The notes under the pieces were generated by a model, which was not told the origin of the DNA, did not search any database, and saw only the letters and a program-made list of their open reading frames with translations. Of a stretch of DNA of 64,000 nt, positions 8,733 through 60,133 are shown in pieces; within the stretch, counting starts at the first letter, position 1; each line of letters begins with the position of its first letter. This stretch comes from Lichina pygmaea (taxonomy: Eukaryota; Ascomycota; Lichinomycetes; Lichinales; Lichinaceae). Location of the stretch: assembly GCA_963422465.1 (NCBI GenBank), contig OY730171.1, positions 744,001-808,000 of the forward strand. Reading direction: 5' to 3'. The position numbers and the translations under genes were made by a program.

Positions 8733-9559
8733 CTTCGTTCCAGGCTCTTCGGTGTTTTCGGACCGCGAGCGCCGTTTGTGCCTTTGGTACGTACTCGTAT
8801 GTACTACGTTCAGCAGCGGTACGTACCCTCGTACCCTCATACCACCGTACTCTCATCCCACGGTCTCCTTGCCAAAACTCCCAAGACAAGTCTCCGCATT
8901 TCCAGGATTCGACGTCCGGCAACAACTTTTGTGTCAGGGGGCCAAGGTACCTTCGTACTGGTCGCTCCACAAACTGCTGACTCAGCAAATCACGTGAACG
9001 CGCCCCTCCTACACCGAGAGCAACTCGCACGAGGGAGGAGGGTCAAGGGTGATTGAGGACCGGCAGTCGAACAAGAGGTTTCTGCTTGATTTGATTAGTT
9101 GTTACGGGCAATCAATTCGTCAAGTGTCGATTCATGAAGAATCGTACCCGTATGATGGTTCATTAGTCTGCCTGGATACAGTAGTCGGTCATCTCGACAA
9201 CGGCTTAGTGCGTCGGTCAGTCTATCAGTTCGTCAGTTCATCAGTCCGTGAATCCATCCGGATCAGCCCATTGGCTACCGTAGTGTCGAGGCATGTGTTC
9301 TAGTACGCCCGGCGCCACGCTCATGTGCCACTCCACGCCACCCACGTCTCCGGGCCTCGAGGCCAGACTATAAGACCTGTCTACTGCTGCTGTCCACGTT
9401 TATGCTGGTGTTTATGGTTATGTGTGTGTTTGTTTGTTGGTGGTAGTGGTGGATGTAAGAAGAGATACAGAGTTGGAGTGGAGGGTGAAAGGGACAGAGC
9501 GAGAGAGATTGAAAGCCCTCTCTGCTCCCCTGATTCGAGACGCAATCCTCTCCTCCACC
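8733..9559. other. Intergenic with GTAC islands, no gene seen
   Basis: Convergent spacer downstream of the Vid30-like gene. It contains GTACGTACTCGTATGTAC-type motifs at about 8787-8850 and GT-rich sequence at 9405-9450. Open frames are short and featureless. Confidence 0.5.
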
Positions 9560-10272
9560 CTATTGCATGTAGTCCTTGCGGACGTTGATCAGGCCCCCGC
9601 CACCGCCTTCCTCGGCGAGTTCTTGGACCAGCACCTCTGCCTGTTGGAAGATCCGTTCGATCGACGACGTGGCCGACTTGCCGAGCGAGACTAAAAGCGG
9701 ATGTCAAGTGGACGAGGTCAGCGAGGAGAACAACGACGCCGTCTCCATCGTAGTGGCCATCACCACTTTGTACGCAAGATAGCAGGGATAGAGGAGTGGG
9801 CACGTCGCCCCGATTCAACGTACCGAGTATGGCCGCGTTGAGATCCTCGGCCACGGGCACCCGTCCGCTGGGTTCCAGCAGGTGCGCGACGACGGAGCTC
9901 ATCGGTTCCTCGTACGCGAGCAGCGAGAAGGTGTCCTCGAGCGTCTTCTTGACCTCGCGGCGGTGGTCGTCCCGGAACTCCTGCCGCAACTCTTGTCCGT
10001 ACTCGAGCGTCTCCTGCAGCAGATTGAAGTGTCGAGCCGCGGCGTCGTCCGCGGCGTCGTCCGCGTCGTCCGCGGCGTCGTCCGCGTCGTCCGCGCCGCC
10101 GTTCTCTTCCATCTCCATACCGTCCCAGTCGGCGCCGCCCTCTTGGACTTGCTCGTCGACCTCCATCTCTTCGTCGAAGACACTGCCACGGTGCCGTTCA
10201 CGATTCTCCTCTTCGTTTGCGTCCTCGTCGTGTCCCTTCTTCTGATCGTCGTCGTCGTCCTCTTCCTCCGCC

Positions 10273-10304
<32 letters not shown>

Positions 10305-12507
10305 TTCGTCGTCGTCAACGTCTTCATCGTCATCTTCCTCCTGTTCGTCGTCGCGAGCGGCATAAGAACGGCCGGTTCGGGCGATGGAACTCTGCGCCCG
10401 CCTGATGGACTGCCGCCCCGCCATGAGACGGAGCTCGGAGCAGCGCCGGTTCATCTCGATGAACTTGCGACATCGCATCCGAAAATAAATCTGCTCGTTG
10501 TCTTTCAGGACATTCGGGTAGCAGGCGTAGGTGTACTTGAACGCTTTGTCAATGTCTCCGTCGAGTATCGCCACTCGAATGCCTGCAGAAGACATCAGCC
10601 GTCGAGGAATCAGAGGTTCGGAGCGGCTAGGGTCGGCCGTACGTTGCCGGTTCAGGGCGTCGACGTCCTCCTTGACGTGGAAATCTGCCCGAGGACCCTG
10701 GCCGTTGATGCGTAGACCGTCGGCCTCGGCCCGGACCTCTTCGGCAAAGGCCATGGCGCTGCCAAAGTAGCCCTCGTGCGCGAGGTACTGAGCCACGAGC
10801 CGCTGCAGCAACGAGCTCTCGCCGAGCGGCGGTCGTAGCTTCGCGGTGCTGGTCGTCCGAATCGCCTCCTCGATCGTCGATCTGTCGGCCTGTTCGATAC
10901 GGAGAGGCTCCGTCAGGCGCTCCTGCGCTAGAAGAAAGCCGAGGACGTAGAGGGGCGGAGCCATTGCGCCTCACCTTGACCAAGCCGTCGATGTCAAAGA
11001 GAAAAGGAGAATGTCCAAAGTTCGCTTTGATCGCCTCTCCGGGTTTCTTCATGCCGACGGAGGGAAAGAGCTTGCCCTTGACGTCGCGGAAGGCGACGCC
11101 TGAGGAAACAGAAAGTCAGCCTCCGTCCGTCCCGTCGACAGAGCCCCGAGAGGAAGGAGGTCCCTGCGGCGCGCTTACGGCGCCATCGCACAACGTACCC
11201 AGGAAGACGCCGTTCTTGGTGAAGAAGGCGCATCCGGTTCGAAAGTTGACGCCGCAGCCGATTATGTCGTGGGAGCCGAATTTCGGGCCGTACTCCCTGC
11301 CGTGGTCCGAACAGCAGAACGACCGGCCGTCGTCGCCGTGATAGGCCCACGACTCGGGCTCCCAGCCCGGTAACCGATTGAGGGACACGCGCGAACTGGA
11401 AAAGCCCACGCCGATGGTGCTAAAAGACCCACGGGATTAGCACGACGTGCAAGCCAGCCAGACCATCAGACCATCCGAGCGACGGCGAGAGTCTGCGCCG
11501 TTCCCCCCCCCCTCTCCCTCTCCGTCGTCGTCCATCGACGGAGACGGTGGTGGATGGCGCGGGGACGGGGGCATAACACGCTCGCGACCCTCGCGACGGT
11601 GGCCCACTCACCCTTCTTTCCCTTTGGACGTCACGAGGACCTCGTAGTAGTAAATCCCACACTGCGGTGGCATGAAATGATCGGCGCGTACGGCGGCGGC
11701 TTCGATGTGCTCCTGCGACCTGCCCTGACCCACGAAACGCACGTCAAAGCCTTCCTGATGCAAGTCGAGCCCGCCGAACCTGTCCCTGTCGCTCCACCTC
11801 GACGGCAGCGGCGTCAGCCCGCTCGTGTCGACCGCGGGCTCCTTCTCGATGATGTCGTACGTCATGCCGCGGTGGGACATGGCCATCTTGTGCAGGTTCG
11901 CGCTGCTGGGGCTCGTCGACAGCGAGCCGCCGTTTGGAGCGTGCGTTTGAGGCGCGTCCCGCTGCGCGGCGAGTCGCGCCTGATGAGCCTCGGCTAGACG
12001 CTCGACGTACCTCGACGCGCGCAGGTACGTCGGTGTCATGAACGCCTCCGAGCCCGATCCCTTGACGGCGTTGTGGGTGGTACCCGCCGTCAGAAAGCGA
12101 AAGGCACTGGACTGCTGCGGCAAGTCCACGCGGCCACGGTCCGGCCTCGCCGGGTCGGAGAGCGCGTCGCCATTCAAGTTCGAGCCGGCCGGGTGGAGCT
12201 GACCGGACTGGGACGGGCCCGATTGTTGCTGCGCCTGCTGCGCCTGGCTCAAGAGGTGCGAGAAGGCGCCCATCCTCGTCATCGGCGTGTGTGCCGAACC
12301 GGATGTCGATGTGCCACCGGCGGCGACGGTGGCATAGGACGATCTTCGACCAAGAGCTCCGGCGCTGTTCGGGGCCGAGGCCGGGAAGGTCCCCAACGGA
12401 GGGCCCAGCGGGACGTTGCTCGCCATGACCGGCCGACGAAAGCGACCAGGGCCAGCCGACGGCTGCCGGCGACGGTTCCGGTTCAGAATCACGGACGACG
12501 ATGGCAC
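9560..12507 (-). CDS. vid30: RanBPM/Vid30-type SPRY-LisH-CTLH-CRA protein
   Basis: This is a scaffold subunit of the GID/CTLH E3 ubiquitin ligase, which in yeast degrades gluconeogenic enzymes (family knowledge). Exons are about 12507-11612, 11419-11199, 11099-10975, 10889-10643, 10582-9824, 9690-9560, giving about 792 residues. A long Ser/Gln/Ala-rich N-terminus precedes the SPRY domain (about 285-415; YYYEVLVTSKGKEG, LPGWEPESWAYHGDDG, IIGCGVNFRTG, FFTKNG). It is followed by LisH (about 440-466, LVAQYLAHEGY), CTLH (from about 495, NRQRIRVAILDGDIDKAFKY) and a C-terminal CRA region ending INVRKDYMQ. Between CTLH and CRA is a long Asp/Glu-rich insertion coded by GAC/GAT repeats (about 10030-10345 on the plus strand). 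The start is the most upstream in-frame ATG of the first exon; an internal ATG 27 codons later is possible. Confidence 0.9.
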
Positions 12508-26181: not shown

Positions 26182-27671
26182 ATGCACTACAGACAACATG
26201 GCCTACGACATGTTCCATATCGAGTCTCTCGCGCCCGGCGAAATCAGCGTGCCAAGTCCGGCTGGACCCGTCCAGACCATGAAGACCCTCGCATGCGTCA
26301 CCTGGGGCCGATCATCCAAGATGAATATGCCACGATCCGGCCCAACTATGGTAACAACCCCAGAGTTTCTCTAACTTGACGCAGCTGACCTGGGCTAGAA
26401 ACGCCGAAAAGTCCTATAATCCTGGCCCATGGCCTGCTCGGCTTCGAGGAGTTGCGTCTGCCACCCAAGCACCTGCTGCCAGGCATCCGTTACTGGCGCG
26501 GCATTCGCGAAGCTCTGACGGCCAGGGGTATCGCTGTGTTTACCACCTCGGTTCCGGCATCGGCTTCAATCGAACAGCGCGCGGCCAGGCTGGCCGAGGA
26601 CATCGCCAAGAAGGCAGGACGACGCAGCGTAAATATCATCGCGTAAGTCGCGTTTGCTGAATTTGGTATGCTCGGCAGGCTAACGTGCTCTCAGACATAG
26701 CATGGTATGACAGAATGATCTGTGGTTGTGGGACTGGATACTAACAGTTTGTGCAGGGGTAAAGGGTCCTTCTCTTGTTGATTGGAATGATGCAAGAGCC
26801 ACTGATCGACGAGGTGTCTCCCAGTGGACTGGATTCTCGCCATATGATCAGCTGTCTCAGGCCGACAGATTTCAAGGTTCTATCCTTGACTACCATCGCC
26901 ACGCCACACCGAGGTGAAGGGCGGACCGATCAAGAATCTCTGTGCACCTGCTGACCCTCCTTGTAGGGTCCGCATTTGCAGACCATGTCTTTGAGTTCAT
27001 CGGAGATATGCATCATGCCCCGCGGTTCATCATGCCAAGCTCTGTCGTGACTGAGGATGTCTTTAGAAAGCCGGCTGCCAAGGATATACAAAGCTCTTGA
27101 AAGCCTTCAGATGGAGAGTGGGGCTTTCGGACAGATGACGAGACGCTATATGGAAGAGGAGTTTAACCCAAAGACCCCTGATCTTGATGAGGTTCGGTGG
27201 GTCTTTGGAAGAGCCTAACAGCTTATAGTTACACGCGGCTTACTTGTGCCCTCACCACCAGGTACTTTTCATACGGTGCATCGGCCGAGCCATCGCTGTG
27301 GTCTGTCTTCCGGCGATCGCACCAGATCATCGATCGAGAAGAGGGAGCAAATGACGGGCTTGTCAGTGTCGGCAGTAGCAAATGGGGCACCTACAAGGGG
27401 ACCCTCGTGGGAGTCAGTCACCTCGATCTGATCAACTGGACGAACCGACTTCGGTGGTTCATATGGGAGATGGCGGGAAACAAGAGAGAGTCAGTTGTAT
27501 CCTCCTTTGACAGGATCGGTCGAGCTTTCCCTGACCAGAGACACGCAGGTTCAATGCAATTGCGTTCTATCTCGACATCGCAGGTACTTTTTGGTGGTTT
27601 TGCTCCTCCGGGGCCGCTTGAGCTGACACCCTCTGGTCTTGACAGATATGCTGGCCAAAGAAGGCCTTTAA
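26182..27671 (+). CDS. Triacylglycerol lipase-type alpha/beta hydrolase (10 exons)
   Basis: A serine lipase, likely hydrolysing acylglycerols. Exons 26182-26350, 26399-26642, 26695-26704, 26757-26758, 26825-26913, 26967-27005, 27067-27196, 27262-27489, 27549-27583, 27646-27671 sum to 972 nt and 323 residues. The oxyanion region is ILAHGLLGF (about 63-71). The nucleophile motif AHSMGG is at 138-143 (Ser140), and it is spread over four exons, one of them just GG. LTTIATPHRGSAFADHVFEF and NDGLVSVGSSKWGTYKGTLV (Asp of the triad likely here) and GVSHLDLINW (His) follow. The Arg-rich N-terminus could be a mitochondrial leader, or the true start may lie upstream. The intron at 27006-27066 begins AT, not GT; without its removal translation stops early. 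So the copy may be damaged or use a rare splice site. Confidence 0.85.
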
Positions 27672-32848: not shown

Positions 32849-33048
32849 NNNNNNNNNNNNNNNNNNNNNNNNNNNNNNNNNNNNNNNNNNNNNNNNNNNN
32901 NNNNNNNNNNNNNNNNNNNNNNNNNNNNNNNNNNNNNNNNNNNNNNNNNNNNNNNNNNNNNNNNNNNNNNNNNNNNNNNNNNNNNNNNNNNNNNNNNNNN
33001 NNNNNNNNNNNNNNNNNNNNNNNNNNNNNNNNNNNNNNNNNNNNNNNN
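32849..33048. other. Assembly gap (200 N)
   Basis: Exactly 200 unspecified bases. It is followed immediately by (ACA)n, so the gap probably results from a trinucleotide repeat. Confidence 0.99.
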
Positions 33049-35921: not shown

Positions 35922-36219
35922 GATTGAGCGTGGAGCCAGTGTTTCTGGCGGTGCGCGATCACCACACTCGCATACCTCTACGTACAGTACCGGTACGTAT
36001 CTGTCACATGCCTGTGGCGCTTAGACGCGGCTAGATGCCGTCAGTGGCGGTGACTACCGTACCGTACAGTGGCGCACTATCCGCTTGACGCGTCTATCGC
36101 GGTCAAACTAGCCACGTGGGGCTCACCGCCTCTGAATTTGGTCAAAATTGAAGCTTCACGCCGTGCACGTTGCACAGCTCACATCAATTGGCGTTCAAAT
36201 AAACCGATCTAGACTGATA
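35922..36219. promoter_or_regulatory. Shared divergent promoter, DnaJ / RPA43
   Basis: 298 bases separate two oppositely directed start codons. The middle has GTACAGTACCGGTACG and TACCGTACCGTACAG patches (about 35982-36070), the same GTAC motifs as in other spacers. No classical TATA box is evident. Bidirectional use is inferred from gene layout. Confidence 0.5.
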
Positions 36220-37242
36220 ATGTCGGTTGAATACCGACCATCACCAATGTCACCCGAGGGCAGCCGACGAAGAGCCAGGAAATCATCTAGCAAGAAGAAA
36301 CATCGGGACAAAAGCAGCGACAAGAAGAGGAAGCGGCAGGGGGAGGCCATCGACGACGAGCCGTCGACGAAGAAACACCGCAGCGAGAGATATGAAGATC
36401 CACGGACGAATGTGCAGCCACCAGAGCCTGCTCCCTCTGCGTCTTTCATTACGCCTTTTGTCACCAAGACCTGCTCGTTATACCTGCCTCTGTCGCCAAT
36501 CTCTCAACTCCGCCCGCTCGAAGGACTCTGCGCCGAGCATCTCTCACCCTTGCTGCTTACCTACTACCGGCCGCTCGGTGGGGTTGTGCTCTCCTATAGC
36601 AACCCCAGGCTTTCAGAGCGTCCCTCAGCCACATGTGGCAAGACCGACGAGCCAGCTCTAGCGCTGTCGATCAACGAGTACGCCCCTAGCTATGTTTGGG
36701 CCACGGCGGATTTCCTGTTGTTCAAGCCACGGCGGGGACAGATAATCGAAGGGTGGATCAATCTGCAAAACGAGAGCCACCTGGGCCTAGTCTGCTGGAA
36801 CCTGTTCAACGCCAGCATAGAAAGACGACGACTGCCGCGCAATTGGACGTGGAGCGGTGTTGGCGGCGGGATGTTCGGCAAGGACGGGCACCAGGCAACT
36901 CAGAAACCCACGTCCCGTACTGAGGCAGACGAGAGAGGCCAAGGGAGCTTCATCGACGGAGACGGGCGCAAGGTCGAAGGCGCGATTCGGTTCAAGATCA
37001 TCGACATCGAAACGGCATACAGCTACGGGAAAGGCTTTCTGACAATAGAGGGAGCACTGCTCGACGACAACGACGAAGCGCAGCTGGTCGAGGGTGGACA
37101 GAGCCGGTCTGGGCAAGGGCAGAGGGATGCGGTCGTCGGACGGGTGGAAGAGCGGAATGGTCTAGCCAGAAGTCGATTTAGAAGCATTGGAGGAGATGAC
37201 GACAGGATGCATCCAGATCGTCGGAACGACACAGTGAGCTGA
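36220..37242 (+). CDS. rpa43: RNA polymerase I subunit RPA43
   Basis: RPA43 forms the Pol I stalk with RPA14 and contacts Rrn3 for rRNA gene initiation (family knowledge). The single-exon frame has 340 residues from MSVEYRPSP; 24 in-frame codons upstream are ignored because the first ATG of that extension lacks conserved sequence. A Lys/Arg/Ser-rich N-tail (about 15-60) precedes the conserved core: FVTKTCSLYLPLSPIS (about 85-100), HLSPLLLTYYRPLGGVVLSY, then the OB-like block PRRGQIIEGWINLQNESHLG and LVCWNLFNASIE. The C-terminal part contains an acidic/basic linker, then IRFKIIDIETAYSYGKGFLTIEG, and a charged tail. Confidence 0.93.
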   Translation: MSVEYRPSPMSPEGSRRRARKSSSKKKHRDKSSDKKRKRQGEAIDDEPSTKKHRSERYEDPRTNVQPPEPAPSASFITPFVTKTCSLYLPLSPISQLRPLEGLCAEHLSPLLLTYYRPLGGVVLSYSNPRLSERPSATCGKTDEPALALSINEYAPSYVWATADFLLFKPRRGQIIEGWINLQNESHLGLVCWNLFNASIERRRLPRNWTWSGVGGGMFGKDGHQATQKPTSRTEADERGQGSFIDGDGRKVEGAIRFKIIDIETAYSYGKGFLTIEGALLDDNDEAQLVEGGQSRSGQGQRDAVVGRVEERNGLARSRFRSIGGDDDRMHPDRRNDTVS

Positions 37243-37655: not shown

Positions 37656-40600
37656 ATGGCTCGACCTTCTGCTCTTCGTCTGCGGTTGAGTATCCAGCGA
37701 CATGGACTGCCCGCTACTCGAATACTATGGACAGTCGACGAGGGCAGCAACGAGGCGTTCTCGTTCGCCGACCTCCTGGGGGAAGTGAACGAAGTCGTGC
37801 CTCTCGAGTCCAACGACTGGGGCTTGGAGGACTACGCGGTCGAGCAGGACGGCTTCGAATGCTTGCACTTTCAACCCGTAAGGAAGGGTTTGCACGATCT
37901 GGACTCGGTCGAGTGAGCTATCCATGTCCGACTTTGACGGCATGGCACGTCGCTGACCAACGTTAGCATTCGACCTCTTTCGACCACCGAGCTCAAGCTA
38001 CGGAAGCTCTCGGGACGGGTGCAGATTTCCTCTGACGGCAAACATCTCATCGATGGTGTCGCCTTTGGCCGGCCCTACATTGGGAGGTCGAACGCCAGGC
38101 CCTCCGTCCGGATCCCGCCACGGAAGCGGAGGAGGCTCACTTACGACCAGGATGACGACGACGGCAATACCGTTGCTGTCGACGAGCCGAGACTTCTTCT
38201 CGGGGAAGGCAGGGGTAGCTTGGAAGACCCTGATGGCGATTCGAGCGATGAGTCCTTTCAACCCGAAGAAGAAAATGGGAGTGAGGCATCTACACAGCTC
38301 TCCGCTGTCTCTGAGGGTTCAGCGTCGGCGGATCTGGGTACTGCACGCGCACTGGACCGAACCGCGCCGTCCGGGTCTGGTATGGGTGGGACGAGAGCAC
38401 AACCCACTCGGCGGCAGAGTCGCCGTCTGATGCAACACCATGGTCATGGTGGCGAGACAAGGGATGGTGAAGAGTCCTCCATCTCGCAATGGCATCGGCA
38501 GGGTCTAGACGATCAGGGTGAACCCTCCGCTGCAATGCCGCCATCTACATCGGTGTCAAGGCAATCCTCCACAAAGGTAGCGTCGCCAAGGCAACCACGG
38601 GCCAAGGGTCGAGCTAAGACATCTCCGCCAATCACATTAATGCCACGCCTTTCCAGCTCTCGAGGCTCCTGCATAAGCAACAAAAGCGTTCATTTCGACA
38701 AGGACCAATCCGGAGCACAAAATGAAGAGCCAGACGTTGAGGGGGCTTTCGACTGTGATGACAGTGGATCCTCTCCGGATGGGAGCTCCGATGAGTTTAC
38801 GGCACGGAGCTCCGATAGCGATACCGAGGACTCGTCTACGAGCTCGGAGATGGCAGGTACGGGCACGCCCGGTAGTGCTCGGCGGTCCGCGCCATCTCGG
38901 TCCGCGCCATCTCGGTCCGCGCCATCTCGGTCCGCTCCATCATCGGCGTCTCCGTCCTCTGCAGAGTCTTCCTCTGCCATGAGCGATGACTCTTCTGACT
39001 CGGAGGAATTGGTAGCTTCTCCGTCTAAAACCCAAGTCGCTCTGGACGAGCCCTTGTCCGCAGCGGCGCCAGAGACACGCAAGACGACCGTCGTGCAACG
39101 ACCAACGAAGCCTCCTGGAACCGGTTCGATGGCTACAAAGAAGCGCAACGAGAGACGGCGAAGGCGGAGACTGCTGACAAAACTTGAAACGACCGCCCGC
39201 TCGGAAGTCCAATCCACCCGGGATCAAGAGAGCAGTGTACAACGCAGCGAGACTGGTCAGAATTCTGTGATGGATGGTGCACCAGCCAAAGTCGAAATCC
39301 CCCAAAAGCGCAAGGGCAAACCGGAGTTCGAAGTACAAAGACAGAGGCTGTTGACCGCTTTGGCAAACGGGGGAATTGAGATGCCCCTAGAAGATAGCGG
39401 CAAGGATGTTGGCGCCAAAGCCTCGCAGCCGGCTGGTTCCAAGCGTTCGGCTGCTGGTGCTGTCGTTAAAATTCGAGAATCAGCTGGAACCGAACAGCCC
39501 GACGGTCCTGGCGATCAGAAAGCGTTTGAAGAGCCGGCCAAGAACTCCCGTTTTCGTCCCAAGCTTGATTTGGCCAGCTCAAAGCGCATGCTTTTACACT
39601 CTCTGGGCCTTGGCGGTTCGCAAGCAAAAGTCAGGAACCAGAACTCCGTGGTAAAGCGGACGGATACATGTCGAGATGCTTCGGGAGGTCGACCTAGCGC
39701 CCGGCATGTCATATTTGGCACGAACGGCCAATCCGAGGAAAAGGACGAGTCTGAGGGTCATCTGTCGAGCGTCAGCTACGAGAATTGGCAAGAGCGAATG
39801 ACTCTTGATGCGGTCGAGTGCTGCGAGGAGGGAGTCACCTTGAGCACGCCTCCCTTCCCATTCGTTCAGCGCTGGGACCCCCAGCAGAAATTCTCTGGCA
39901 AGACCGGCAAGAAAGGGAGCAAGAAGCGGAAGCGCAATCAAGCGCAGTACTACGGTGACGATGATTACTCCCTTGATCATGCGGATGCTGCGGTCGCCAA
40001 AGATTCTCAGCCACACGGCCACCTGCCAGCAGAAGCCTCGGTGGGCGGCACACCGCACCAGAAAGATGGCGAATCCCAAGGCCCACTGCTCGTTGATCCT
40101 CAGACCAATCACCACGAAGGGCAGAATGACGAGGGCGATATTCCTGCGATGCCCGTCGATCCGAACACGTGTTCCGTTCTCGGAGCCCTCGACGTACGCC
40201 CAGGAGCTATCATCGGCTTCAAACGCCTAGTGATGACTCCTGACTGGCAACCAGAAGTATCAGGATATCAAACCGCGAAAGTCGTCAAGGGCGTCGAGGG
40301 CGATTTCATGGAGGTGACCTTGGCCAAGCGCGATCGGCCAACGAAGGAAAAGCACTACGACGAACACGGGGAGAGAATCTACGGAAAGTTTGAGGTTGCA
40401 GACGACGATGACCCTGATCAGGACGACGATGGCCTGCTCGAGATATCATTCTCCGAGCTCATCGAACCAAAGCTCTTGCAGGCCAGCCCGGAGAGCCTCA
40501 CCGAACCTGGATTGCAGCAATGCAACACCGCCGCACCGGACAGCTCTCAGAAGCCCGTCGATTACACGGAAGCACACGACGAGAAAGATGAAGTCGATCC

Positions 40601-41699
40601 AGACGTGGAAATGGACGCGCCTGCCGCGGGTGGTGATCATATAGATGACTACGTGGAGCTGGATCACGGATCTGATGATTTCATCCCTGACTATTTTGCG
40701 TCACCACTGGGGTCTCAACCGCGGCAACATGCCGACAATCATGAGACCGGGCATCCTACCGTGCCTGACGAGCCGGCGCCTCTTCACGGGGACTCACCGG
40801 CTATTGTTATGGACATCCCCAATTCGCCTATGTTTTCCGGGCTCGGACTCGATCCTCTTCCTCAAGAAGGGTCTGCCCGTCAGGAGCGATTCAGGACACC
40901 GCAGGCTTCGGCCGAATGGTCGGAGAACGATGGAGATGTACCGAATCACCAACAGTCATCACCTGCAAAGGCTATGAGCCCACGGTCTACAGAACAGGAT
41001 GATATTCGGTCGCCGAAGTCTTCAAGGTTGGAAGCAGCTTCAGATGAGGATCGGAGTCAGCGGCGCTCTGCAGAGGCCAGGTCGAAGTCGCCAGGCCATG
41101 CAATACCCCGAACCGTCGCTGCAGGAGTTGAGCCAATTGAGTCTGCAGAAACAGCGGTTTCGCACAACGACGACACATTTCGAGCTCAGCAGAAGACCCC
41201 GAAACCCTCCGAAGAGCCGCCGGCAGATGCCGACGAGCTCTCTTCGGGCTGCGAGCTACCGGAGCTGGATACGATCTTCACCGGCACTCGAGCATCCGTC
41301 AGTCGGGTCAAGCGAGAAAGCACCGGATCGGAAGTCGAACCTCCTCGAAAGAACGGTGCATACACTTCGTTGGCCGTGCGCGAAGTGGCGACAAACATCA
41401 GTGCGCCGTCCGGGCTCAATCCTCCATCGTCCACGGCGCCACCTCCGCGCACACCGAAGGCAGCTTCCGAGGTTGTCGATCTCACCCAACTCAGCGATGG
41501 CATCACCATGCTTTCGGATTCCGCTCGAGATGAGAACGCTAATGGCGACTATGGCGACAACGAATTCGGCCTGCCCGGCGGCCCGGGATGGATTCAGAAG
41601 CTACGCCGCGGAGGTCGCTACAGTAATGCGACAAGCTCGACTGGTCGTGGACGGAAGCGTCCCAGAAACAGCATGAGACTGGGCAGTGGCACACTATAG
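37656..41699 (+). CDS. Coilin-like nuclear protein (DUF7357-type N-domain, Tudor-like C-domain)
   Basis: A large, mostly disordered protein of 1329 residues from two exons (37656-37912, 37967-41699; 54-nt intron, GTGAGC donor, CTGAC branch). The N-domain (about 1-125) has a ubiquitin-like feel: MARPSALRLRLSIQRHGLPA, EVNEVVPLESNDWGLEDYAV, then RKLSGRVQISSDGKHLIDG and GRPYIGR. Basic clusters PPRKRRRL and MATKKRNERRRRRR suggest nuclear location. A folded block near 815-925 (VRPGAIIGFKRLVMT, VVKGVEGDFMEVTLAKRDRP, LLEISFSELIEPKLL) looks like a Tudor-type module as in coilin. The long middle is Ser/Asp/Glu-rich. Family knowledge links coilin to Cajal bodies; whether this fungus has them is unknown. 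The name is a moderate-confidence inference. Confidence 0.72.
38883..38940 (+). repeat. 15-bp in-frame tandem repeat (RSAPS)
   Basis: Nearly four copies of CGGTCCGCGCCATCT code for RSAPS units within the disordered part of the coilin-like protein. Being 15 bases long, copy-number changes keep the frame. Confidence 0.92.
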
Positions 41700-42800: not shown

Positions 42801-44576
42801 ATGACGCAGGAGTACAAGCTCAAGCTCGGCTCGCTCGAGCTCAAGGATCTGGAGAAGCAGGAGGTCGAGGTCGAAGGGATCGAAGGTGGAAAGGTGCTGC
42901 TGGTCAAGCTCGGAGAAGACGTGCACGCCTTGTCGCCCAAATGCACACACTATGGAGCTCCGCTGGTCAATGGAGTCATGACTCCTGATGGCAGACTTAC
43001 CTGCCCTTGGCATGGAGGTACACATGTGAAGTAGCAACATCCTATCGGGTATAGTGATGCTGATTCGTGGCTGGCCCAGCTTGCTTCAAGGTCGCGACCG
43101 GAGATGTCGAGGATGCACCTGCTGTCGACCCGCTCTCCAAGTTTCCTGTCTTCAAGAGGGACGGTTCGATGTACATCAAGGCCGAGGAAAAGAGCATCAA
43201 GGGTGGTCGTGGAGTTGGAGACATTGAATGCAAGGTCGAGACGGATGACAAGGTAGTCATCGTTGGCGGGTACGTGTGCACAGGCGTTCTATAGACTCAA
43301 AGCAATGTGTCACTAACCTTTCGTATCGGAACATAGCGGTAGCGGGGCCCTCGGCGCACTTGAGGCACTCCGGAAAGGAGGCTACAGAGGAAGCATCACC
43401 GTCATCTCGCGCGAACCCTACCCGCCTATTGACCGAACCAAGCTGTCCAAGGCCTTGATTCCGGATGCTTCGAAGCTTGCGCTTCGAACACAAGAGTGGC
43501 TCGGTAAAGCCTCCGTCGCTTATGAGAATGATATTGTGGAGCGCGTGGATTTCTCAAAGAAGACCGTCCATACGAGCTCGGACAAGTCATACCCGTACAG
43601 CAAGCTCATCTTGGCCACCGGAGGCACGCCCAGGAGATTACCGCTCCCCGGGCTCAAGGATCTCGATAATATCTTCACCCTACGCACCGTTCCGGATGTC
43701 CAGGCCATCGTCGGCGCCGTCGGCGAATCGAAAGGCAAGAAGATCGTCGTGATCGGGAGTTCCTTCATCGGCATGGAGGTAGCAAATTGCTTGGCCAAAG
43801 AGAATTCCGTGACGGTGGTAGGTATGGAGAAGACGCCTATGTCGCGAGTCATGGGCGAGAAAGTAGGCGCGCTTTTCCGGAAGTTGCTCGAGCAGAGCGG
43901 AGTCAAGTTCCACATGGAGGCCAGCGTCGAGAAGGCGACGCCGTCCAAGCAGAACCCCAAGAGCGTCGGCGCCGTGCACCTGAAAGACGGCACCGAGCTG
44001 CAAGCCGATCTAGTGATTCTCGGCGTCGGTGTCGCGCCGGCTACGGAGTACCTCAAGGATAACGCCGCAGTCCAGCTCGAGAAGGATGGGTCGCTGAAGA
44101 CGGACCGGTACTTCGCTGTTGAGGGTGTAAAGGACGTGTACGCCATTGGCGATATCGCCACGCACCCGTATCAATCCGCCGACAGCACCGAAGTGTCCAC
44201 GCGAATCGAGCACTGGAACGTGGCGCAGAACGGCGGCCGCGCCGTGGGCGGTTTGATCAGCGGAGCGCGCACGACGCCGAAACCGTTCATCCCCATCTTC
44301 TGGTCTGCGCTCGGCAAGCAGCTGCGGTACTGCGGCAACACGGCCAAAGGCTACGACGACGTCGTCGTGCAAGGTAGCCTCGAAGTCGACAAGGCTTCCT
44401 TCGCCGCCTTCTACACCAAGGGCGACACGGTCCAGGCCGTCGCCACGATGCAGATGGATCCCGTCATGAGCAAGTCCGCCGAACTCATGCGTCGGAGCAA
44501 GATGCCATCAAAGCATGACCTCCAGAACGGCGTCGACGTCCTCAACGTAGCCTTGCCTGCCGAAGTCAGCGTATAG
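42801..44576 (+). CDS. Rieske/AIF-type NAD(P)H-dependent flavoprotein reductase (AIFM3-like)
   Basis: A flavoprotein oxidoreductase with an N-terminal Rieske [2Fe-2S] domain, related to AIFM3/ferredoxin reductases. Exons from this ATG are 42801-43017, 43080-43269, 43337-44576 (548 residues). Rieske ligands: CTH (Cys48, His50) and CPWH (Cys68, His71), the second completed by the first splice. The FAD site is VVIVGGGSGALGALEAL (about 131-147), with PYPPIDRTKLSK. The NAD site is KKIVVIGSSFIGMEVA. DVYAIGDIATHP is the second FAD contact. An in-frame ATG at 42663 adds 46 residues rich in Arg, Ser and Thr with no acidic residue, like a mitochondrial presequence. A mitochondrial and a cytosolic form from two starts are possible. 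Confidence 0.92.
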
Positions 44577-57769: not shown

Positions 57770-58416
57770 CCCATGCATTTCTTCTCCCGCCGACGCCGGT
57801 CCGAGTCCACCGCTTGGGCACGTGACTCGGCCGTGCTGTGGGATACTGCGTATTCGTGGTGGAGCACCTGGGGGAGAATCGTCCAGGCTCAGGTGCAGAG
57901 TGGTCGCATCACATGAACGAATGGCAATGGAGCTACATACTGCACTAAGCCACATTCGGTACTGGGGCCGACGACAAAACTTATGATCTCACTAGATTAG
58001 AGGTGGCATAAAGCTACGAAGTGATGATGTGACACCTGGTTCAGCGGGCTCGTACGTACACTTGTACCTCCAAGATAGCCTATATTGTTCATTAGTTCTG
58101 ATTCTATCAGGTACTCGCACGTTATGCGCTTGCTTCAGCTAAAAAACTAGTACTGTACGTATGTACGTACTACTTTGGCACGATAGCTTACGTAATGGGG
58201 ATCCTGGCTTCCAGCGAAGCTCGGACCCCGCATCAGGGAACGCTTCGGCAGGTTCCGACAACCTTCCCCGCCTTAGCCCCTATCATGATTGAAGGTACGC
58301 AAACTCTGCCCCGCCAACGTTCTTCAGCACCTTCAGCTTCCTTGGCTGATTGTTCCTTCACGGCTACGTATATATCGTATCCTCGTGAGCAGCGATCGTA
58401 TCTCGAGACTGGAAAA
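57770..58416. other. Intergenic / uap1 promoter region
   Basis: A GTAC-rich patch at 58045-58070 and 58152-58175, then a TATATATCGTATCC stretch about 50 bases before the uap1 ATG that may serve as TATA. The open frame extending upstream to 58195 has no conserved sequence. Confidence 0.5.
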
Positions 58417-60133
58417 ATGGCGGCTGCGGTCAAGGACACCGTTCACACGATCCTCGAGAAGTTGAACCTCTCCTCGGCTGACACCACCGAAGCACCCCCT
58501 GAGCCAACCAAGGAACAGCTCGAGGAACTGCGTGAGAAGTACGTCGAGGCAAAGCAGGACCATGTCTTCACCTTCTACGATTCGCTCGGCGGTGCTGAGA
58601 GAGGCCTGCTGTACGAGTCGCTGTCCCGCTTCGACCCTCAGCACATCAACGAGATCACCGAGAAGGCGTTGAATGCGCCGCCTCCCAGCAAGGACGTCAC
58701 ACTGGAGCCGCTACCCGAAGCCTCGACGGCGTCGGTCCTTCAATCGGATCAGGACAGACTCCTCGTGTGGAACGCGCGTGGCCTGGAGTTGATCTCCAAG
58801 AACCAGGTGGCCGTGGTGCTCATGGCCGGCGGGCAGGGCACCCGGCTCGGCAGCTCGGCTCCCAAGGGCTGCTACAACATCGATCTGCCGAGCCAGAAAT
58901 CGCTGTTCCAGATCCAGGCGGAGCGCATATTCCGGCTGCAGGAGCTGGCCAAGAAGGTCCACGACGTCAAATCGGCCGTAATCCCGTGGTACGTCATGAC
59001 GAGCGGGCCGACCCGGCAGCCGACGGCGAAGTTCTTCGAGGAGAACAGTTACTTTGGGCTCGAAAAGGGAAACGTGATCATCTTCGAGCAAGGCGTGCTG
59101 CCCTGCGTTTCGAACGACGGCAAGATCCTACTGGACAGCAAGTACCAAGTAGGGCTTCGGACGATCGATGCATCGCAGGGAGCGTTTGACCTGACCCTGC
59201 TCTGCAGGTATCCGTGGCGCCCGACGGGAACGGCGGGATCTACAAGGCCCTGGTGACCTCGCCGGCGATGACGGACATGCGGAAACGCGGGATCCAGCAC
59301 GTGCACGCGTACTGCGTCGACAACTGCCTCGTCCGCGTCGCCGACCCCGTCTTCGTCGGCTTTGCCGCCTCCAAGGACGCCGACATCGCGACCAAGGTCG
59401 TCCGCAAGCGCAGCGCGAACGAGCCGGTGGGCCTGATCGTGCTGAAGGACGGACGGCCCGACGTCGTCGAGTACTCGGAGATCGACAAGGACACGGCCGA
59501 GGCCAAGGACGGCACGCACGCCGACCTGCTCAAGTTCCGGGCCGCCAACATCGTCAACCACTACTACTCGTACCGCTTTCTCGAGAGCATCCCGCGCTGG
59601 GCCCACCTGCTTCCCCACCACATCGCGCGCAAGAAGATCCCCCACGTCGATCTCGGCACGGGCGAGAAGGTGAAGCCGGAGAAGCCGAACGGCATCAAGC
59701 TCGAGCAGTTCGTCTTCGACGTCTTCCCCCGGCTCGAGCTGGACCGTTTCGCCTGCCTCGAGGTCCGTCGCGAGGACGAGTTCTCGCCGCTCAAGAACGC
59801 CAAGGGAACGGGCGAGGACGACCCGGACACGAGCCGGGCCGACATCCTGCAGCAGGGTCGACGCTTCGTCGAGGCGGCCGGCGCCACGGTCGAGAGCGAG
59901 ACGGCGGACAAGACCGGGGTCGAGGTCTCACCTCTGATCAGCTACGTCAGCTCGCTCCTCTTCCTCTTTCTTCCTCCCCTTTCTTCCTTTCTCCTTTCCC
60001 CCTCCCAATCTTCGGCCCCGACGTCGAGCAACGATCGACTGACGCCACCGGTTGGATCCAGGCCGGCGAAGACCTGGAGTTCCTCCAAGGTCGTACAATC
60101 AAGGCGCCTGCGGTCATCGAACGAGAGGAGTAA
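58417..60133 (+). CDS. uap1: UDP-N-acetylglucosamine pyrophosphorylase
   Basis: Makes UDP-GlcNAc from UTP and GlcNAc-1-phosphate in the cytosol, the last step before chitin, N-glycan and GPI-anchor synthesis. Exons 58417-59148, 59208-59945 and 60062-60133 sum to 513 residues. The nucleotide-binding signature [20 protein letters not shown] is at about 133-152. [20 protein letters not shown] (second exon), [10 protein letters not shown] and [12 protein letters not shown] are further family motifs; the C-terminus reads [16 protein letters not shown]. The start [15 protein letters not shown] is chosen over 74 upstream in-frame codons because the helical N-domain begins here. The last exon is only 24 codons and follows a 116-nt pyrimidine-rich intron. 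Confidence 0.96.

Follow-up and report, generated by a model that had tools for sequence, protein, structure and literature searches.

A lipase gene of the Burkholderia type, located at 26182-27671 on the forward strand, very likely contains a two-nucleotide exon that is needed for the active-site motif of the predicted enzyme. Positions refer to the window, the whole stretch of 64,000 nucleotides that was analyzed, which corresponds to 744001-808000 of its contig in a source assembly of 32,469,017 bases and 8 contigs. The size of this genome, its short introns, and their branch sites suggest a filamentous ascomycete. With a probability of roughly 0.8, the letters GG at 26757-26758 would constitute a constitutive exon between two ordinary short introns that are removed successively by intron definition. 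From the letters of the gene we infer the splicing of this exon, the order in which its introns are removed, and the activity of the enzyme. If confirmed, a two-nucleotide coding exon at the catalytic motif of a fungal gene would stand beside the published single-nucleotide exon of Fusarium.

Structure of the lipase gene

The ten-exon model of the gene (26182..27671, forward strand, as are all features below) runs from ATG to TAA and comprises 972 nt of coding sequence including the stop, with the start codon and intron 6 being predicted. It needs nine introns, eight of which are of the GT-AG type. Exon 2 (26399..26642) ends ..VNIIA in phase 2 and is followed by intron 2 (26643..26694), an intron of 52 nt with the signals GTAAGT..GCTAAC..CTCAG. 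Exon 3 (26695..26704) consists of 10 nt, ACATAGCATG, and completes AHSM with the catalytic serine codon. Intron 3 (26705..26756; 52 nt, GTATGA..TACTAAC..GCAG) separates it from exon 4 (26757..26758), the 2 nt of which, GG, are predicted to supply letters 1-2 of GGT, the codon for the glycine that follows HSM. Exon 4 is in turn followed by intron 4 (26759..26824; 66 nt, GTAAAG..ACTGATC (CACTGATC)..CCCAG), and downstream of the acceptor of this intron the sequence reads TGGACTGGAT, where exon 5 (26825..26913) begins, giving (G)GLDSRHMISCLRPTDFKVLSLTTIATPHR. Exon 6 (26967..27005) encodes GSAFADHVFEFIG and has candidate 3' ends at 26994, 27005, 27009, and 27024, and exon 8 (27262..27489) bears the aligned Asp (NDGLVS) and His (SHLDLIN). 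Letters and coordinates given around the GG exon in an earlier, sequence-only reading of this DNA were correct when the sequence was read again. Introns 2-4 split the lipase motif three times inside 182 bases.

Relationship to bacterial lipases

Solved structures were searched with the spliced protein, and 52 sequences were obtained at E ≤ 0.1, the top match being the Burkholderia lipase 1hqd (E 7.3e-19). The alignment to 1hqd is free of gaps through VNIIAHSMGGLDSR / VNLVGHSQGGLTSR, and the serine motif HSxGG of Burkholderia-type lipases is thereby found without a gap. In a second stretch of 1hqd, weak when taken alone (i-Evalue 0.44), NDG and SHLD of the lipase lie opposite bacterial NDG and NHLD, and the Asp and His align with the 1hqd residues at 264 and 286, which we take to be catalytic. 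Residues 1-138 matched several alpha/beta hydrolase families in Pfam, with DUF676 and PGAP1 above the cut-offs. Residues 60-239 also match the mitoribosomal protein mS79 (6z1p chain BK) at E 3.4e-6, which suggests that a mitoribosome has recruited a fold of the lipase type.

No relative was recovered from bacterial genomes when the protein was the sole query. With the alignment, the bacterial scan gave at least 590 pattern matches, of which at least 344 were confirmed, and the best 80 of these were kept for a profile. The bacterial relatives are intronless, and among the best 80 of at least 344 all 80 carry HSxG at the site of the motif, although HSx is found there partly by construction, since one of the two scan patterns fixes HS[QM] and only the following GG is free. 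The complete HSxGG was present in 53 of the same 80, including all of the 16 nearest.

Predicted dependence of the active-site motif on the GG exon

Splice models across the motif were enumerated up to exon 5 with GT or GC donors from 26630, AG acceptors to 26838, introns of 35-220 nt, no more than four introns, exons of any length, and the upstream exon fixed from 26401. This gave 2917 GT/GC-AG models; 327 were without a stop, and 148 were both open and in frame with SRHMISCLRP. Only one of these 148 contains [AG]HSxGG, namely the model that joins 26642 to 26695-26704, 26757-26758, and 26825, so that the earlier claim that AHSMGGLD is recovered only with the GG exon holds among the enumerated models. 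The same model ranks first of the 148 on the profile of bacterial relatives with 119.9 bits, followed by 110.8 bits for the next and 81.7 bits for the last; the runner-up uses an 11-nt exon (TTTGTGCAGGG) that adds three residues inside the motif. For the whole protein, the bacterial profile gave 223.3 bits and 0 internal stops with GG, and 74.2 bits and 8 internal stops (masked for scoring) without it. The dependence of frame and conserved motif that marks a micro-exon was thus found both in the count of models and in the profile scores, and the exon has the arrangement AG/GG/GT (slashes denote splice junctions) between canonical sites, with a branch site in each intron.

In the predicted mature mRNA, the ATG ending at 26704 runs on into GGTGGACTGG, and the stretch across the motif contains ATGGGTGGACTGG. 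Its codons ATG-GGT-GGA-CTG belong to the reading frame encoding AHSMGGLD, which in lipases of the Burkholderia type forms the nucleophile elbow. Retention of intron 3 leads to a stop after HSMV, and retention of intron 4 to a stop after HSMG.

An identical product could be obtained with no two-nucleotide exon if one non-canonical intron of 118 nt with TA-CA ends, 26706-26823, were removed. Since G is both the first letter of intron 3 and the last letter of intron 4, the mature letters would be the same as those of the GG-exon mRNA, and a mature transcript alone can therefore not prove the two-nucleotide exon. This was also the only single intron, whatever its ends, that gave AHSMGGLD when the 62 starts at 26698-26759 were combined with the 60 acceptors at 26780-26839, and its length falls within the 48-127 nt range of the 32 reference introns described below. 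Such an intron is nevertheless very unlikely: TA-CA ends are not known to be used by the spliceosome. It would moreover leave the internal TACTAAC..GCAG and GTAAAG unexplained, and a GG context of this kind arose in only 6 of 20000 shuffled sequences.

Splice signals compared with chance

The branch sites are located 12 nt (TACTAAC, intron 3) and 19 nt (ACTGATC, intron 4) from the acceptors, and the intron scores were 14.55 for intron 3 and 14.09 for intron 4. In order to compare these signals with chance, 20000 dinucleotide shuffles were made of 26711-26818, the 108 bases inside the outer splice sites. Some frame-restoring micro-exon of 1-14 nt was present in 12186 of the shuffles, so that the finding of one of some kind means little. 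A micro-exon reading GG was found in 501. When both flanking introns also had to reach a score of 12, 24 shuffles were left, and 6 were left at a threshold of 14.1, which is slightly stricter than the observed 14.09. These counts support the conclusion that the flanking signals of the GG exon, taken together, are rarer than chance. Among GT-AG pairs of 45-80 nt in 264 kb of the genome, 2215 of 74989 scored at least 14.1.

A strict reference set of 32 introns was compiled from 264 kb of genome sequence, with an open frame and the score as selection criteria. The sequence-only reading had credited both introns with good donors, branch sites, and CAG acceptors; the motifs are there as described, while its judgment of the donors was generous, as the donor of intron 3 stood at the 19th percentile of the reference set and that of intron 4 at the 0th, below all 32. 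As wholes, introns 3 and 4 were each at the 3rd percentile, and all of these percentiles are biased against the introns under test, because the 32 were all selected by score and one of them is intron 1 of the lipase gene itself. Other introns of the gene are also weak, intron 1 reaching the 6th percentile and intron 5 having its donor at the 0th. Two other intron collections were dropped because their consensus had drifted from a GTAAGT donor, position +3 of the donor being mostly C; in one of these, a looser one, the percentiles were 0 for intron 3 and 3 for intron 4.

The main transcript might instead skip GG by use of the single GT-AG intron 26705-26824, giving a shifted and truncated product and leaving the GG form as a minor one. 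Scored as one intron, the outer sites reach 14.7, on a par with either short intron. Nevertheless, the frame without GG holds the 8 stops mentioned above, and the downstream exons are well conserved, which nothing would then maintain; we consider predominant skipping improbable.

Proposed route of splicing

For a constitutive GG exon, the introns 26705-26756 and 26759-26824 would each be recognized alone by intron definition and removed successively, one at a time, since the first acceptor and the second donor are too close for joint occupancy. Either order would be workable, because both splice sites are intact whichever intron leaves first. The likelier order may be the one in which intron 3 leaves first, joining ATG to GG, and intron 4 next, as intron 3 has a perfect TACTAAC branch site and a GCAG/G acceptor. 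According to work on filamentous ascomycetes, the splice sites of short introns pair by intron definition (PMC5639578), and between introns read in this way an exon does not have to be recognized as a whole. The view that a two-nucleotide exon lies beyond intron definition was thus overstated, given this report and those of single-nucleotide exons that are spliced in Fusarium (PMC12940212) and in Arabidopsis (PMC4674806).

It had also been proposed that removal of intron 3 improves the second donor. This does not agree with the sequence, as GGG/GTAAAG consists of the same nine letters before and after removal, the context being CAGGG with intron 3 present and ATGGG with intron 3 absent. A related suggestion was a stwintron-like arrangement, which in its strict form has a forced order, where 26705-26756 must leave first and thereby creates the second donor. 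Complex nested introns that are excised in two steps have been reported from Pezizomycotina, one of them in lipS, which belongs to another lipase family (PMC5639578), and the lipase gene resembles the described stwintrons in having two short introns at one place with predicted removal in two steps (PMC5639578, PMC9024468, PMC8469720). In stwintrons as described there, however, the internal intron splits the donor, branch site, or acceptor of the external one. In the lipase gene, only two bases separate intron 3 from the donor downstream of it, the intron splits neither a GT nor a branch site nor an AG, and the donor of intron 4 is complete throughout, so that a forced order is extremely unlikely. 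Recursive splicing at a zero-length exon, with AG directly before GT, likewise differs from what was found, as two letters lie between them.

The tandem introns could in addition act as a switch that gates the active site, with the balance between inclusion and skipping of GG setting the level of enzyme. If either intron is retained, the frame stops no more than two codons past HSM, and if GG is skipped, the frame shifts, so that under such a switch only ordered two-step splicing would yield active lipase. We regard this role as doubtful, and a constitutive exon as the preferred reading.

Intron 6 and the integrity of the gene

The best-placed acceptor for intron 6, TTTAG (27066), requires an AT donor at 27006 (GAG/ATATGC). 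The GT options 26995-27055, 26995-27070, and 27025-27070 are in frame and weak, their GTTCAT donors scoring at most 2.6. On the bacterial profile, the alternatives for intron 6 gave 220.8-225.2 bits, and the profile cannot choose among them because the bacterial relatives vary in this region; skipping of exon 6 is in frame, loses the conserved GSAFAD, and gave 201.7 bits. The reported sum of 972 nt in frame over ten exons was reproduced, and is obtained equally from AT-AG 27006-27066, GC-AG 27010-27070, or GT-AG 26995-27055. With at least three choices that fit, none of them with good signals, the sum is no proof of intron 6 and says little for this region.

The problem of intron 6 does not affect exon 4, but it is a reason to consider that the gene may be decaying. 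In a decaying gene the motif would no longer be made, and the GG exon would be a coincidence or a relic. The lack of a good donor for intron 6, which has either AT at 27006 or GTTCAT at 2.6 or less, is in line with decay, as is the fact that the in-frame skipping of exon 6 drops GSAFADHVFEFIG. Decay is nonetheless unlikely, since 972 nt are open over ten exons with 223 bits against the bacterial relatives, the putative catalytic Ser, Asp, and His are all in place, and in-frame canonical GT-AG options do exist for intron 6, one of which has the highest score of all (225.2 bits).

Comparison with known ultra-small exons

One of the closest cases is CYP621A of Fusarium, a P450 gene in which a 1-nt exon (AG/G/GT) contributes to the glycine codon of the PKG motif, as reported from 20 orthologues and 18 reads (PMC12940212, Nelson and Syed 2026). 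In both genes, an ultra-small exon lies between two short introns (AG/G/GT versus AG/GG/GT) and within the codon for a glycine in a conserved motif, and both exons were found by way of the reading frame and the motif. They differ in length (1 nt versus 2 nt) and in the gene affected, and the Fusarium exon is backed by orthologues and RNA reads, whereas the exon described here is predicted from sequence. The authors of that report suggest that a cryptic AGGGT was adopted after loss of a base near a boundary inside the motif, and that G is favored as it suits both splice consensus sites (PMC12940212). The GG exon would fit this idea, and it would also fit a history in which a new intron was inserted two bases away from a pre-existing one.

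In plants, 1-nt exons are described in APC11 and VPS55 (PMC4674806, PMC8831610), and the Arabidopsis 1-nt exon is reported to be spliced (PMC4674806). As described, these exons are constitutive, too small for gene finders, and essential for the frame, as proposed for the GG exon; they differ in belonging to plants and, for APC11, in having been demonstrated with a reporter in which letters were changed. The lipS gene of Dactylellina is likewise an intron-rich fungal lipase gene with very small exons, but these are of 3 nt, and its product belongs to the alpha/beta hydrolase fold 3 family and is not of the Burkholderia type (PMC5639578). A search of the open-licence literature for two-nucleotide exons found no paper on one. 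Exons of 2-5 bp are, however, cited for Arabidopsis, Drosophila, and humans in the introduction of PMC12940212, and the size of the exon is thus in itself not a first. The GG exon is striking, yet has precedent in the single-nucleotide exons of Fusarium and plants.

Introns begin and end with G, and an exon consisting of G or GG can therefore be mimicked in the mRNA by one non-canonical intron shifted by one base at each end. Such exons will escape aligners or be recorded as unusual introns, and the two readings cannot be told apart from mature reads. The same argument would apply to the G exon of Fusarium.

Origin, repeats, and other features of the window

An origin of the exon by tandem duplication was considered on the basis of GGACTGGATACT in intron 3 (26731-26742) and GGACTGGATTCT in the opening letters of exon 5 (26826-26837), which are identical in 11 of 12 letters. 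The statistics for it are weak; the p-value of this repeat, one of seven comparisons, was 0.025 against the chosen stretch and 0.13 against the whole downstream gene. An introner was rejected, as 26700-26830 matched only itself genome-wide at E ≤ 10 in a search that skips very common words. No close second copy of the gene was found among the best candidates, where five of the six matches at E ≤ 10 were in the lipase gene and the sole match outside it had an E-value of 0.52.

A 21-nt inverted repeat with 86% complementarity has one arm at the beginning of exon 6 (26959-26979) and the other in exon 8 (27378-27398). The p-value of this alignment is 0.002 for a stretch chosen after it had been seen, and the repeat is probably a coincidence because both arms encode conserved protein.

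Elsewhere in the window, a run of 200 N is located at 32849-33048. Ten of the 57 listed reading frames were scanned against Pfam, and matches were obtained to CTLH (9381-10964), an RPA43 OB domain (36148-37242), a coilin Tudor domain (38019-41699), a pyridine nucleotide-disulphide oxidoreductase with Reductase_C (43455-44576), and UDPGP (58195-59256).
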